Positions 11,685-63,763 of a stretch of 64,000 bases of DNA are shown here, one piece after another. The stretch comes from Flaviaestuariibacter flavus (GTDB lineage Bacteria > Bacteroidota > Bacteroidia > Chitinophagales > Chitinophagaceae): assembly GCF_004337505.1 (NCBI RefSeq), contig NZ_SJZI01000002.1, positions 414,379 to 478,378 on the forward strand, read 5' to 3'. The position numbers and the translations under genes are program-made. The notes beneath the pieces were generated by a model. The model searched no databases, had not been told where the DNA came from, and saw only the letters and a list, made by a program, of their open reading frames with translations. Numbering within the stretch: position 1 is the first letter of the stretch; each line of letters begins with the position of its first letter.

Positions 11685-11692
11685 CAAAGGTA
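11685..11692 (-). promoter_or_regulatory. -7 promoter box of the ABC exporter gene
   Basis: The minus strand reads TACCTTTG, a TAnnTTTG match ending 14 nt before the GTG start at 11670. The expected -33 region falls inside the octamer array 11702-11749 and contains no TTTG. Confidence 0.5.
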
Positions 11693-11701
11693 AGCGCGGG
11701 A

Positions 11702-11749
11702 TAATGTGCTGATGGAGTTATGTGCTAATGGGATGACGTGGTTATGAGC
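11702..11749. repeat. octamer array (six units, TNATGNGN)
   Basis: Six back-to-back 8-mers: TAATGTGC, TGATGGAG, TTATGTGC, TAATGGGA, TGACGTGG, TTATGAGC. The 8-base phase is kept throughout, with conserved T at position 1 and A-T/C-G at 3-5. The array lies 9 nt upstream of the ABC exporter -7 box. It belongs to a family of short-period arrays found at several places in the window. Confidence 0.7.
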
Positions 11750-44013: not shown

Positions 44014-44021
44014 CAAAGATA
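44014..44021 (-). promoter_or_regulatory. -7 promoter box of the aldolase gene
   Basis: Minus-strand TATCTTTG (TAnnTTTG), 16 nt upstream of the ATG at 43997 and 8 nt from the heptamer array 44030-44057, which covers the -33 region. Confidence 0.55.
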
Positions 44022-44029
44022 GCCAAGCA

Positions 44030-44057
44030 GATGTCTGATGTGGGATGTCGGACCTCC
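44030..44057. repeat. heptamer array (four units)
   Basis: GATGTCT, GATGTGG, GATGTCG, GACCTCC in strict 7-base phase, 8 nt upstream of the aldolase -7 box. The same GATGTCC-type unit recurs on the far side of the SRP RNA gene (44222-44249). Confidence 0.65.
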
Positions 44058-44080
44058 GATTTTGATCAAATCTACCAAAG

Positions 44081-44102
44081 AAAAAAGCCCCTTTCGGGGC
44101 TC
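44081..44102 (-). terminator. intrinsic terminator of SRP RNA
   Basis: Minus-strand AGCCCC-GAAA-GGGGCT followed by TTTTTT. Confidence 0.85.
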
Positions 44103-44111
44103 TCAATAAGT

Positions 44112-44209
44112 TGGCAGGCTACTCACATCGCACCGCTACGACCGCCTACCCTTGCTACCTTCCGGTCCTGGGGGAGTTCAGCAGGAGCTGGTCGTGTAAG
44201 ACCTGCCGG
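44112..44209 (-). ncRNA. ffs: signal recognition particle RNA, small bacterial type
   Basis: About 98 nt. The apical domain reads CCCAGGACCGGAAGG, then TAGCAAGGG, which matches the conserved SRP domain IV (GGAA tetraloop and the asymmetric AGCA loop that bind Ffh). Ends pair as GGCAGG (44202-44207) with CCTGCC (44113-44118). A TACATTTG -7 box lies just upstream and an intrinsic terminator just downstream. It guides membrane and secretory proteins co-translationally together with Ffh. Confidence 0.9.
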
Positions 44210-44211
44210 TG

Positions 44212-44219
44212 CAAATGTA
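44212..44219 (-). promoter_or_regulatory. -7 promoter box of SRP RNA
   Basis: Minus-strand TACATTTG. A heptamer array (44222-44249) begins 2 nt upstream and fills the -33 region; a TTG at 44235-44237 is somewhat too close (15-nt spacer). Confidence 0.65.
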
Positions 44220-44221
44220 AG

Positions 44222-44249
44222 GATGTCCGATGTCCAATGTCCGATGTTT
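44222..44249. repeat. heptamer array (four units)
   Basis: GATGTCC, GATGTCC, AATGTCC, GATGTTT in strict 7-base phase, directly upstream of the SRP RNA -7 box. Confidence 0.7.
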
Positions 44250-44289
44250 TACAGATTTTTTTGAAAAAGGTGTTTCGGCTTGGTGTGCA

Positions 44290-44316
44290 GATCTGAGATC
44301 CGAGATCTGAGATCGT
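44290..44316. repeat. heptamer array (four units)
   Basis: GATCTGA, GATCCGA, GATCTGA, GATCGT(T), abutting the permease -7 box at 44317. The unit GATCTGA recurs 17 kb away at 61215-61221. Confidence 0.7.
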
Positions 44317-44324
44317 TACATTTG
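44317..44324 (+). promoter_or_regulatory. -7 promoter box abutting the permease start
   Basis: TACATTTG ends 4 nt before the ATG at 44329, implying a leaderless transcript. The -33 position is occupied by the heptamer array 44290-44316. Confidence 0.6.
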
Positions 44325-44328
44325 CCAT

Positions 44329-45579
44329 ATGCGTCGCCTACTCGAGATCGCCGGCAGCAGTTTCCGGATGGCCCTCCAGGAGCTTTGGAAAAACAAGCTG
44401 CGCACCTTCCTATCGCTTTTCGGCATCACCATCGGCATTTTCTGCATCATCGGTGTGCTGTCTACGGTGCAAAGTCTCGAGCACAACCTGCAGAACGAGA
44501 TCAAGTCGCTCGGCTCCAACACCATTTATATTGATAAATGGGATTACAGCGCCGGCGGCGGTCCTAACTATCCCTGGTGGAAGTATGTGAAGCGCCCCTC
44601 GCCACGCATCGAGGAGCTCGCCGCCGTTAAGCAACGCAGCACCCTGGCACGCTATACCTGTTTCGAGATCAACGCCAACGACCGCGTGCAGGTCGGCGAC
44701 AAGTCGCTCAGCGGCGTCACGCTTTACGGTGTCACCGAAGACTTCCCCTCGATCCAGACCATGGAGATCCGCTACGGGCGCGGGCTGAGCGATGCGGAGT
44801 TTTCGAGCGGCTCCGGCACGGTGGTCATCGGCAATGAAGTAGCCGACAAGCTTTTCCCGGCCCCGGAGCTTGCCGTGGGCAAACTCATCACCATCCGGGG
44901 CCGTAAATGCCAGGTAGTGGGAGTGATGAAAAAGCAAGGTAAGTCGATGATCGGTGGCTGGAACTTCGACCAGAGTGCCGTGATGCCTTATCGCTTTGCC
45001 CGCTTTATCATGGACGAGCGCCGTGCCGATCCGCTGCTGCTGGTGCAGGCCAAAGAAGGCGTCACCACCAAGGCGCTCGCCGACGAGCTGCGGGTGGCGT
45101 TGCGCGCCGTGCGGCGCCTGAGCCCGCGCGATGAGGATAATTTCGCCCTCAACGACATCAACGATTTCTCCACCAGCATCAGCGAAGCCTTCGTAGCGGT
45201 TAATATCGGCGGCTGGGCCATCGCTGCCCTTTCGCTGATCGTGGGTATGTTCGGCGTAGCCAATATCATGTTCGTTACGGTCAAGGAGCGCACGTCCCAG
45301 ATCGGTCTTAAAAAAGCGCTTGGCGCCAAAAGCGGCGTTATCCTGAGCGAGTTCCTGCTGGAGTCGGCCTTTCTCTGCATCATCGGTGGTATCATCGGTA
45401 TCGGCCTTGTTTACGGGCTTACCCGCCTCGTTACGATCCTGTTCGATTTCCCGATCTATGTGTCCACTTCGCTCGTACTACTCGGCCTCGGCATTTGCGT
45501 TGCCGTCGGCCTTATCGCCGGCATCATCCCCGCCGCCCGCGCAGCCAAACTGAACCCGGTGGTAGCGATTCGTTCTTAA
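44329..45579 (+). CDS. ABC transporter permease, MacB/FtsX type
   Basis: 416 residues. An N-terminal membrane helix (about 20-45: FLSLFGITIGIFCIIGVLS) is followed by a periplasmic MacB_PCD domain (about 50-280), and three C-terminal helices form an FtsX domain (WAIAALSLIVGMFGVANIMF, KERTSQIGLKKALGAK, IIPAARAAKLNPVVAIRS). The family transmits ATP-driven movement across the membrane for lipoprotein, toxin or peptide export, or enzyme control. No ATPase gene is adjacent in this window, so its partner is encoded elsewhere. Start at ATG 44329, next to a -7 box. Confidence 0.9.
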   Translation: MRRLLEIAGSSFRMALQELWKNKLRTFLSLFGITIGIFCIIGVLSTVQSLEHNLQNEIKSLGSNTIYIDKWDYSAGGGPNYPWWKYVKRPSPRIEELAAVKQRSTLARYTCFEINANDRVQVGDKSLSGVTLYGVTEDFPSIQTMEIRYGRGLSDAEFSSGSGTVVIGNEVADKLFPAPELAVGKLITIRGRKCQVVGVMKKQGKSMIGGWNFDQSAVMPYRFARFIMDERRADPLLLVQAKEGVTTKALADELRVALRAVRRLSPRDEDNFALNDINDFSTSISEAFVAVNIGGWAIAALSLIVGMFGVANIMFVTVKERTSQIGLKKALGAKSGVILSEFLLESAFLCIIGGIIGIGLVYGLTRLVTILFDFPIYVSTSLVLLGLGICVAVGLIAGIIPAARAAKLNPVVAIRS

Positions 45580-45611
45580 TAATGCGGTAATATGATAATG
45601 TGCTAATACGG
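45580..45611. repeat. octamer array (four units), right after the permease stop
   Basis: TAATGCGG, TAATATGA, TAATGTGC, TAATACGG in strict 8-base phase, starting at the base after the stop codon. It is in inverted orientation to the array at 45660-45691: TAATGCGGTAAT here is the exact complement of ATTACCGCATTA there. Confidence 0.75.
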
Positions 45612-45659
45612 TAAAAGCGGGTTGTATCGTCGGTTTGGCCGGCCTGCGTATGCCAGACA

Positions 45660-45691
45660 ATTATCACATTAGCTCATTACCGCATTACCGC
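45660..45691. repeat. octamer array (four units) upstream of tsaD
   Basis: ATTATCAC, ATTAGCTC, ATTACCGC, ATTACCGC in strict 8-base phase, followed by ATTAATTT, which overlaps the tsaD -7 box. Inverted partner of the array at 45580-45611, with 48 nt between. Confidence 0.75.
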
Positions 45692-45693
45692 AT

Positions 45694-45701
45694 TAATTTT
45701 G
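45694..45701 (+). promoter_or_regulatory. -7 promoter box abutting tsaD
   Basis: TAATTTTG (TAnnTTTG) ends 3 nt before the ATG at 45705, implying leaderless tsaD mRNA. Confidence 0.6.
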
Positions 45702-59375: not shown

Positions 59376-59410
59376 TATTCTTTATTCGATATTCATTATT
59401 CGATATTCAA
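59376..59410. repeat. heptamer array (five units)
   Basis: TATTCTT, TATTCGA, TATTCAT, TATTCGA, TATTCAA in strict 7-base phase. Its last unit runs into the stop codon of the DUF3810 gene (59407-59409). Confidence 0.75.
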
Positions 59411-60601: not shown

Positions 60602-61159
60602 ATGACCCACCGGCGGGAGTTTGAAATAGCGTTTGTTGGATTAAAGCCGGGTGTTCATGAATACCTGTATGAAGTCAATGATTCGTTCTTTGAGGAGTTT
60701 GGAGAGCAGGATTTCCGGAAGACGGGTGCCACGGTACGCCTCTTCCTGGAAAAGAACACGGGCTTTATGCGCCTGCGGTTCGAGGTTGGCGGCAAGACCG
60801 AAGTAACCTGCGACCGTTGCGCATCGGAGCTCCCCCTGCAGCTGTTCGACGAATTTAACCTCACGGTGAAAATGGTGGAAGACCCCGAAACCATGAACGA
60901 CCAGGAGGAAGACCCGGACGTCTATTATATCGGCCGCGGCGAAAGCCACCTCGATGTAAAGAACTGGATCTACGAATTCGTCAGCCTCAGCATCCCGATG
61001 CAGAAGACCTGCGAGTTCGAGAATATGGACGGACCGCACTGCAGCCCCGATGCCAGGCGCCTGCTTAACGACATGCGCCCGGTGGAAGGACCCAAAGAAA
61101 ACCCGCTCTGGAAAGGCCTGGAGAAGTTCCGGGACCTCGAAGGAGAGGAAAACAATTGA
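60602..61159 (+). CDS. DUF177 / YceD-family protein
   Basis: 185 residues from the ATG at 60602; a TTG frame to 60566 would begin inside the -7 box. VGLKPGVHEYLYEVND and RFEVGGKTEVTCDRCASEL with its CxxC are the DUF177 pattern; a second pair of cysteines follows (KTCEFENMDGPHC). The family is encoded beside rpmF and linked to 23S rRNA accumulation in plants and bacteria. Here it precedes rpmF and plsX, the conserved order. Confidence 0.88.
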   Translation: MTHRREFEIAFVGLKPGVHEYLYEVNDSFFEEFGEQDFRKTGATVRLFLEKNTGFMRLRFEVGGKTEVTCDRCASELPLQLFDEFNLTVKMVEDPETMNDQEEDPDVYYIGRGESHLDVKNWIYEFVSLSIPMQKTCEFENMDGPHCSPDARRLLNDMRPVEGPKENPLWKGLEKFRDLEGEENN

Positions 61160-61192
61160 TCTCAGATGTCAGATCGCAGATCTAAGATCTGG
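61158..61192. repeat. heptamer array (five units)
   Basis: GATCTCA, GATGTCA, GATCGCA, GATCTAA, GATCTGG, starting inside the yceD stop codon. Its G-A-T-C cores are self-complementary, so it can pair with itself or with the array at 61208-61235. Confidence 0.75.
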
Positions 61193-61207
61193 CTGCCGAG
61201 AACAATA

Positions 61208-61235
61208 GATCCGAGATCTGAGATCAGAGATCGAT
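61208..61235. repeat. heptamer array (four units)
   Basis: GATCCGA, GATCTGA, GATCAGA, GATCGAT, 15 nt after the previous array, upstream of rpmF. GATCCGA and GATCTGA also occur in the array at 44290-44316. Confidence 0.75.
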
Positions 61236-61327
61236 AGATTTTTGTAACACGTGGAAGGAAAGCGTTGCGATTTTCGTTTGACGATCCCCGTTTCACGATA
61301 CCGATAACAGAATAAAAAAACCGAGTT

Positions 61328-63637: not shown

Positions 63638-63641
63638 CGGC

Positions 63642-63683
63642 TTGAATGTTCAATATTCAATGCTCAATTTTCAATCTTCAAGC
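63642..63683. repeat. heptamer array (six units)
   Basis: TTGAATG, TTCAATA, TTCAATG, CTCAATT, TTCAATC, TTCAAGC in 7-base phase. Inverted partner of 63700-63727, with a 16-nt gap. Confidence 0.75.
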
Positions 63684-63699
63684 AGGGTGCACTCGTGCC

Positions 63700-63727
63700 T
63701 TGAACATTGAACATTGGATATTGAATG
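63700..63727. repeat. heptamer array (four units)
   Basis: TTGAACA, TTGAACA, TTGGATA, TTGAATG in 7-base phase, complementary in type (TTGAA versus TTCAA) to the preceding array, 36 nt upstream of the SDR gene. Confidence 0.75.
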
Positions 63728-63763
63728 ATTTTCTGAATACCTTAGGCACACAATCCTCCTCCT

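Follow-up and report, generated by a model that had tools for sequence, protein, structure and literature searches.

Introduction

Tandem heptamers in intergenic DNA are known from cyanobacteria as short tandemly repeated repetitive (STRR) sequences, and Escherichia coli carries bacterial interspersed mosaic elements (BIMEs) at gene ends, at which gyrase binds. Bacteroidetes promoters follow the consensus TAnnTTTG (the -7 box) with a TTTG at -33. The heptamers GGGAATC and GGGGA(C/T)T of Xanthomonas and Anabaena/Nostoc are described in passages of Rehm 2015 (PMC4692102) as intergenic, located near gene ends, in some cases overlapping stop codons, and under-represented between divergent genes; the repeats lie on the coding strand within 50 bp after stop codons and on the non-coding strand within 50 bp before start codons, and these passages interpret them as quadruplexes. 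TAACTGA repeats are reported from Beggiatoaceae, cyanobacteria and five Bacteroidetes in parts of MacGregor 2015 (PMC4679880). In the sections concerned, both studies take single units, discuss translation control, rearrangement and quadruplexes, and cite Mrazek 2007 for the proposal that polymerases slip by 7 nt. In the open-licence literature, mostly among the matches listed, we found no account of inverted 7/8-mer arrays from Chitinophagaceae. Here we analyze such arrays in a window of 64,000 nucleotides of Flaviaestuariibacter flavus (contig NZ_SJZI01000002.1, positions 414,379 to 478,378), in which a first-pass annotation had placed arrays of 7- or 8-bp units at five promoters and had proposed either a mobile-like short repeat that prefers promoters or an upstream activation or phasing element replacing the -33 box.

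Our results point to these arrays being the arms of extragenic palindromes resembling repetitive extragenic palindromes (REPs) and BIMEs, with arms made of iterated 7- or 8-bp units that fill the unoccupied stretch from a stop codon to the following -7 box; we lean towards this reading with moderate confidence. Dispersed palindromes of the REP/BIME type are the best description of the anatomy. The proposal of a mobile-like repeat survives in changed form: a genome-spread 7/8-bp repeat is present, and its supposed preference for promoters is not borne out.

Period and abundance of the arrays

The own-genome sample consisted of the 64-kb window and 1.6 Mb in stretches (1.664 Mb) of the 3.96-Mb draft genome, which is 85.8% complete. 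Gene calls came from a home-made hexamer caller and did not include RNA genes, and the 1108 intergenic gaps of at least 20 bp were scored for self-match at each lag from 5 to 13 with a score threshold of 9. Segments numbered 4, 5, 203, 147, 19, 20, 2, 7, and 5 at lags 5 through 13, respectively. The non-redundant set comprises 349 arrays in 248 of the 1108 gaps, about a fifth of them, and two or three arrays in one gap are ordinary (95 of the 248 array-bearing gaps). At lags 7 and 8 and a score of 13, the first 864 kb contained 84 intergenic segments versus 1 coding segment, and shuffled gaps contained none. Across the whole genome, GATGTCCGATGTCC with at most one mismatch produced 51 matches versus 1 for the backwards-read pattern, and TAATGNGGTAATGNGG produced 86 versus 2. 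At score 12, the window itself holds six segments at lag 7 and one each at lags 8, 9, and 12; at the same score an E. coli control of 50 kb gave no segments at any lag. Period 7 and near-absence from coding DNA, as in heptamer arrays of the Xanthomonas/Anabaena type, are both seen here, with period 8 in addition.

Unit families, polarity and inverted pairs

Nine hand-defined unit families take in 330 of the 349 arrays, with the remaining 19 classed as "other". The largest unit clusters number 72 and 63, where random units give at most 16. Family units combine fixed and free positions, as in TAATGYGN, GATSTCN, and CGTSARY; six positions of TAATGYGN are 87-99% fixed and the remainder are free.

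Read from the gap edge towards the centre, the 330 assigned arrays stand 274:56 in the main sense of their family. With the AAT7 family (34 arrays) excluded from the counts by gap class, the ratios are 162:36 for tandem gaps, 58:7 for convergent gaps, and 28:5 for divergent gaps; AAT7 itself stands 26:8 in the same sense as the other families, and gaps without a found partner give 83:18 (AAT7 and GAATAT7 excluded). Since this polarity runs from edge to centre regardless of gene directions, it is a property of the element and not of the promoter. The polarity p-values are somewhat too good, because the reference and orientation of each family were set manually once the data had been inspected (the CGTCGTGC reference was flipped afterwards) and because families were excluded, the 19 "other" arrays in every count. 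The arrays also follow the rule of coding strand after stops and non-coding strand before starts seen in Xanthomonas and Anabaena.

Inverted pairs with a local score of at least 11 were present in 134 of the 248 array-bearing gaps versus 4 in a reversed, uncomplemented control, with a median arm of 25 nt and a median middle of 53 nt; divergent gaps hold 15 of the 134. An inverted arrangement, extragenic position, and location on the 3' side of genes, the traits of REP/BIME-type elements, are thus all found in this genome.

Location within intergenic gaps

Arrays occur in 55 of 184 convergent, 169 of 715 tandem, and 24 of 209 divergent gaps (convergent versus divergent, Fisher 8e-6). Among gaps of up to 600 bp, which make up 1063 of the 1108, arrays account for 8.5% (convergent), 6.8% (tandem), and 1.8% (divergent) of the bases that lie 60 nt or more away from every start, and they cover 8-11% of the positions 20-60 nt upstream of starts in tandem gaps versus 3-4% in divergent gaps. 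The gap between the aldolase and permease genes of the window is counted here as one divergent gap despite the signal recognition particle (SRP) RNA gene inside it, because RNA genes were uncalled. Presence regardless of the direction of the neighbouring gene, as for a promoter element, is not what this genome displays, and a preference for promoters is not supported, given the higher coverage near starts in tandem than in divergent gaps and the abundance of arrays in convergent gaps, which have the most.

In tandem gaps, an array starts 0-10 nt past the stop codon 44 times versus 17.4 expected, and an array ends 10-20 nt before the start codon 38 times versus 17.6 expected. The stop triplet is repeated exactly one unit further on in 26 of 127 near-stop arrays, compared with 12 of 760 control comparisons.

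Counted on gene-start sides in F. flavus, TAnnTTTG has a peak 10-40 nt ahead of start codons that the backwards-read pattern lacks; TAnnTTTG therefore behaves as a box here. Arrays do lie closer to these boxes than random positions would, as the first-pass annotation had held: 28 end -4 to +10 nt from a TAnnTTTG versus 8.9 expected when arrays are shifted at random inside their own gap, out of 67 gene-start sides with both an array and a box and 217 sides with an array. The distances are spread over this range and enriched across it. Many elements span the interval from stop codon to -7 box, and the adjacency is what arrays filling this free stretch would give. Crowding against the -7 boxes is probably a boundary effect, with the look of a promoter part arising from arrays that run up to the next promoter.

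Arrays and the -33 position

The idea that arrays replace the -33 box was compared with orthologous permease promoters at 75 of 80 permease loci, which come from genome records that in nearly every case bear the label Chitinophagaceae, Chitinophagales, or Bacteroidota. Four of the other loci start inside the gene or within ~50 bp of it, and L084, which also has a TAnnTTTG box, was left out by hand despite having upstream sequence. TAnnTTTG is kept in 70 of the 75, and a TTTG 21-29 nt upstream is present in 3 of these 70. An array was detected within 80 bp in 6 of the 70, none of them with a TTTG. Since orthologs with and without arrays are both mostly TTTG-free, the absence of TTTG is not linked to arrays, and the replacement of a -33 box is not supported at this promoter. 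The most similar permease orthologs, L071 and L072, have by eye heptamer-like arms with quite different units at this place; their boxes (TATCTTTA) miss the strict pattern and hence fall outside the 70.

Within the own genome, a TTTG 16-31 nt upstream was found at 0 of 29 array-adjacent boxes. Promoters without an adjacent array gave 16 hits at 21-27 nt among 166 (p 0.14), and the 0 of 29 is not significant because TTTG is also rare without arrays. In tandem gaps of 100-250 bp, a box was present in 32 of 96 with arrays versus 32 of 194 without (p 0.002), an excess that fits arrays located at transcription-unit boundaries.

Folding and terminators

Folded as single-stranded DNA, three of four window elements do better than shuffles (45572-45697, z -3.61; 61154-61236, z -4.06; 63640-63730, z -3.32), and the fold of 44218-44320, the pair flanking the SRP and permease promoters, is weak (z -1.70). 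On the transcribed strand of tandem gaps, arm mismatches comprised 62 G.U versus 70 A.C, with no G.U excess; in the related genome G016 the excess was opposite, 12 G.U versus 32 A.C (p 0.004). Judged by wobble pairs, selection for an RNA hairpin was negative in both genomes.

Terminator-like hairpins were found in 4 of 63 tandem gaps with inverted pairs versus 54 of 272 without (p 0.009), and in 12 of 32 convergent gaps with pairs versus 25 of 67 without. In gaps with pairs, the arms enclosed 7 of 17 terminator matches, and the other 10 lay outside. The traits of intrinsic terminators, a GC-rich stem and a U-run, showed no enrichment in pair-bearing gaps with the crude finder used.

Distribution and turnover among relatives

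The 80 permease loci (526 kb including coding DNA) contained 38 segments at lag 7, 11 at lag 8, and 8 at lag 9, at most one at each of lags 4-6 and 10-13, and 18, 2, and 6 at lags 14-16, which indicates a widespread though patchy occurrence of the 7/8 period. From 20 related genomes, two of which (L212 and L223) read only N, samples of at most 20 kb gave 21 lag-7 segments within the genus, 1 within the family, and 1 within the order; at score 12, period-7/8 segments were absent from 11 of the 18 readable samples. In this set the stretches of G016 and G011 had been picked near known TAATG matches, which biases their densities.

G016 shares 210 reciprocal best hits with F. flavus at a mean identity of 74%, with the permease 81% identical. 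Its arrays occupy 76 of 245 gaps, with 75 segments at lag 7, 34 at lag 8, and 1-8 at other lags. Inverted pairs occur in 39 of the 76 array-bearing gaps, versus 2 in the control. Of its 109 arrays 24 were not assigned to a family, and polarity is pronounced for GAT (11:0), GTTTGTA (13:1), TTTTGAC (15:1), CGTGAGC (13:2), and ATTGGT (11:1) and less clear for TAATG (7:4) and AAT (3:2).

Arrays turn over between the two species. The 116 orthologous gaps divide into 20 with arrays in both genomes, 15 with arrays in F. flavus only, 29 in G016 only, and 52 in neither. The F. flavus gap is the longer in 12 of the 15 occupied there alone and in 7 of the 29 occupied in G016 alone, so the occupied gap is mostly the longer one. 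Several of the 20 doubly occupied gaps carry different unit families. By eye, both arms differ in family at C42:544275 and C42:709798 and the sequence beyond the arms is conserved, and at C42:746383 and C42:541095 the arms are more alike between the species than the middle.

Two further repeats were noted in this comparison. In G016, a AGACGCACCATGTGCGTCTC-like hairpin repeat stands several in a row in gaps whose ortholog has 7/8-mer arrays or remnants. In F. flavus, a divergent and a tandem gap contain copies of a longer, imperfectly palindromic sequence that ends in stretches like GAGAAAGAACGCAGATC / GATCTGCGTTCTTTCTC, a separate dispersed element.

Comparison with known systems

Going by general background, the arrays resemble STRR heptamers in period 7 and intergenic position. 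The closest printed parallel is the heptamers of Xanthomonas and Anabaena, which, as far as the passages of Rehm 2015 (PMC4692102) describe them, share period 7, intergenic position, proximity to gene ends, stop-codon overlap, divergent depletion, and polarity with the arrays studied here and differ in that F. flavus has nine families with periods of both 7 and 8, and that relatives differ in family at corresponding gaps. The four same-strand GGG runs expected of a quadruplex-capable unit are present in 3 of 349 F. flavus arrays and 2 of 109 in G016; two or more GGG runs are present in 29 of 349, mostly in GGTTCT and TAATG units. With so few arrays having four runs, the rule of polarity and location does not require a quadruplex. 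The TAACTGA repeats, in the parts of PMC4679880 concerned, are likewise intergenic heptamer direct repeats known from some Bacteroidetes, whereas the F. flavus arrays form inverted pairs and are biased towards gene ends. With REP/BIME elements, as portrayed in portions of PMC3733652, the arrays share extragenic position, palindromic arrangement, and dispersal in families; unlike those elements, they have arms of tandem 7/8-mers and unshared middles, and a flanking transposase was not found in the 85.8%-complete genome.

Weighing the explanations

Under the reading we lean towards, a typical element consists of a short 7/8-bp array, a middle of ~50 nt (sometimes an ordinary terminator hairpin), and an inverted array of the same family. 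Some nine families coexist in the genome, each mostly pointing from the edge to the centre of the gap. Elements occupy the least constrained DNA, from right after the stop codon, which some reuse in the unit, to the -7 box. Inverted-pair cassettes may disperse in the manner of REP/BIME elements or of miniature inverted-repeat transposable elements, arrays may grow or shrink by replication slippage in one-unit steps, and selection would purge elements that hit coding or promoter DNA. Most copies are probably without strong function, and some may have turned into transcription-unit boundary elements; the arrays would then have no promoter role.

Several results weigh against this reading. Arms within one gap are only modestly more alike than members of the same family in general (21 of 129 fall below the 5% mark). 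Adjacent units are 81.2% identical versus 79.8% in permuted order (z 4.0), which is little mark of slippage, and exactly identical neighbouring units show no excess (109 of 683 versus 17.6% in permuted order). Array-masked middles were shared with another gap of the family in 4 of 45 TAATG gaps and 0 of 21 ATTGGT gaps, which is unlike recent transposition, and the 1.5-kb flanks of four Y1_Tnp genes contained one array, at the outer edge of the L201 flank. The trend over gap classes is weak and not significant in G016 (convergent 15/40, tandem 49/156, divergent 12/49; convergent versus divergent p 0.25), and joint occupancy of the orthologous gaps is somewhat above chance (p 0.04, uncorrected for gap length). 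At C42:541095-541214, a TTTTGAC array and its G016 ortholog have an almost letter-identical right arm that contains TACTTTTG; this near-identity across species argues for selection at that gap, and judging by its sequence this array may itself serve as a promoter.

Further candidate routes were set aside. The notion that arms are letter-for-letter copies of each other met only a modest excess. REP-associated tyrosine transposase (RAYT) mobilization, in which the repeat flanks its cognate transposase gene, found no nearby arrays at the four Y1 transposases within the 1.5-kb flanks. Telomerase-like addition would explain the inward polarity and the stop-codon junctions; a search for PF00078 reverse transcriptase gave no match in the 85.8%-complete genome, other reverse transcriptase families not being sought. 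Clustering of array-masked gaps gave components of ~260 mostly array-free gaps and is uninformative alone.

That an array acts as an upstream activation or phasing element substituting for the -33 box is suggested by the crowding of array ends at -7 boxes, the lack of TTTG at the 29 array-adjacent promoters, the more frequent boxes in tandem gaps of 100-250 bp that carry arrays, and the TACTTTTG within the conserved array C42:541095. We nevertheless consider it quite unlikely. Convergent genes, which need no promoter between them, often have arrays, and in this genome divergent genes have the fewest; TTTG is rare without arrays as well, permease orthologs keep the box and mostly have neither TTTG nor array, and the surplus of boxes agrees with arrays as markers of transcription-unit boundaries. 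A little less improbable, though still unlikely, is that the inverted arms pair in the transcript as terminators or stabilizers of mRNA 3' ends. The order convergent > tandem > divergent in this genome, the DNA folds of three window elements, and the rarity of terminator-like hairpins in paired tandem gaps, as if arrays had replaced them, are consistent with it, but wobble mismatches show no excess (and the opposite in G016), terminators are equally common in convergent gaps with and without pairs, the 7 terminators between arms would sever the second arm from the transcript, and divergent gaps hold pairs too.

Local replication slippage alone, growing 7/8-mers in any free intergenic DNA, would account for the restriction to periods 7 and 8, the avoidance of coding DNA, and the slightly greater likeness of adjacent units, and accords with the 7-nt slippage idea of Mrazek 2007 as cited in parts of PMC4679880 and PMC4692102. 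It predicts unrelated units and random polarity, and so the nine shared families and a genome-wide, largely fixed polarity argue against it, leaving it little chance of being the whole account. Equally improbable in our view is that the arrays serve a protein that binds DNA or shapes the chromosome, offering it tandem sites at gene ends as BIMEs do for gyrase: fixed unit positions (TAATGYGN), dominant polarity, and the gene-end bias of this genome speak for it, yet binding sites would hardly be expected to comprise nine motifs with two unit lengths in a single genome, or to switch family between relatives at corresponding gaps.

A more general idea, which we put forward tentatively and as less likely than not, is that a bacterial process indifferent to unit sequence lays 7-8-bp tandem units inward from both intergenic edges, such that the process and not the unit is inherited. 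If so, Bacteroidota, Xanthomonas, and Anabaena would share one phenomenon, as period and polarity suggest, quadruplex formation would be an incidental aspect of the Xanthomonas repeats, and units would be replaced wholesale between species. Many units in one genome under a single rule of polarity and location make the rule separable from the sequence, so that what makes the arrays, and why the unit is 7 bp, become testable in culturable Chitinophagaceae. For promoter annotation, the arrays counsel caution: a repeat next to a -7 box is not necessarily part of the promoter.

Arrays, boxes and genes in the window

All five arrays named in the first-pass annotation are present where it had placed them, three clear and two (44030-44057 and 11702-11749) degraded, as are the five TAnnTTTG boxes, at array-to-box spacings of 8 nt (aldolase), 2 nt (SRP RNA), 2 nt (permease), 9 nt (ABC exporter), and -2 nt (tsaD). 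Its gene names agree with Pfam (TAL_FSA aldolase, MacB/FtsX permease, TsaD, ABC exporter) and RF04183 (SRP RNA). For the degraded arrays, unit references were selected once the families were already known, and the controls were 2000 Markov resamples and 3385 random windows from array-free gaps.

The SRP RNA gene (44108..44215, minus strand) has a TACATTTG box at 44212..44219 (minus). Upstream of it, a period-7 array with unit GATGTCC at 44222..44247 (plus, self-match 14.0) and one with unit AGATCTG at 44289..44314 (minus, self-match 14.0) form the left and right arms of one unit family in opposite orientations, which had been missed, and a second TACATTTG box at 44317..44324 (plus) serves the ABC permease gene. 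The pair finder gave 44037-44060 as the best partner of 44289-44314. Between the SRP RNA 3' end and the aldolase -7 box (TATCTTTG, 44014..44021, minus) lies the weak period-7 array of the GATGTC family at 44030..44057 (plus). The self-match of 44030-44052 is 8.5, slightly below the scan threshold of 9, and 44030-44057 matches GATGTC units of the genome at 82%, a level reached by 0 of the 2000 resamples and 2 of the 3385 random windows.

The octamer period claimed for the tsaD and exporter arrays holds, clearly at 45660-45695 and in degraded form at 11702-11749. A period-8 TAATGCGG array at 45580..45614 (plus) starts directly after the permease stop codon, and the right arm (CCGCATTA) at 45660..45695 (minus, self-match 18.0) runs into the tsaD -7 box (TAATTTTG, 45694..45701, plus), which it overlaps by 2 nt; 45580-45614 and 45661-45695 form an inverted pair with a score of 21, and the partner array at 45580-45607 had gone unnoticed. 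Upstream of the ABC exporter, whose TACCTTTG box is at 11685..11692 (minus), the TAATG array at 11702..11749 (plus) lies between two co-directional genes. It has no lag-8 self-match segment scoring at least 5 and matches the TAATGNGN (TAATG) units of the genome at 75%, which 0 of 2000 resamples and 0 of 3385 random windows reach; on this likeness we assign it as a degraded octamer array.

Two more inverted pairs, at 61158-61232 and 63642-63725, had also been overlooked. The former has a period-7 GATCTCA left arm at 61158..61190 (plus), overlapping the end of the upstream open reading frame (stop codon 61157-61159), and an AGATC right arm of period 7 at 61206..61232 (minus; pair score 19). The latter joins a period-7 AATRTTC array at 63642..63681 (plus) with a period-7 TTGAACA array at 63700..63725 (minus). 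By eye, AATRTTC arrays often sit within a composite of ~200 bp with outer GAATATC arms, a terminator, and an inner AATRTTC pair (window 63642-63725; C2:74879-75081, C42:240632-240869, C42:248131-248347, C42:722780-722981), and the inner middles of different loci show partial likeness (CTCC...CCTTGAGCC), so members of this family may move as intact elements. For a period-7 TATTCGA array at 59376..59408 (minus), a partner was not found.

At the permease promoter of array-free relatives, a conserved CCATCCAAATAAAATCTTTC-like stretch lies ~40 nt upstream of the -7 box (L079, L081-L083, L091, L094, L095, L104, and others) and is possibly a divergent SRP promoter or a regulator site. Behind the SRP RNA on the minus strand, a GC-rich ordinary hairpin with a U-run occupies 44067-44105, with a further TAnnTTTG (TAGATTTG) at its edge (44067-44074, minus).
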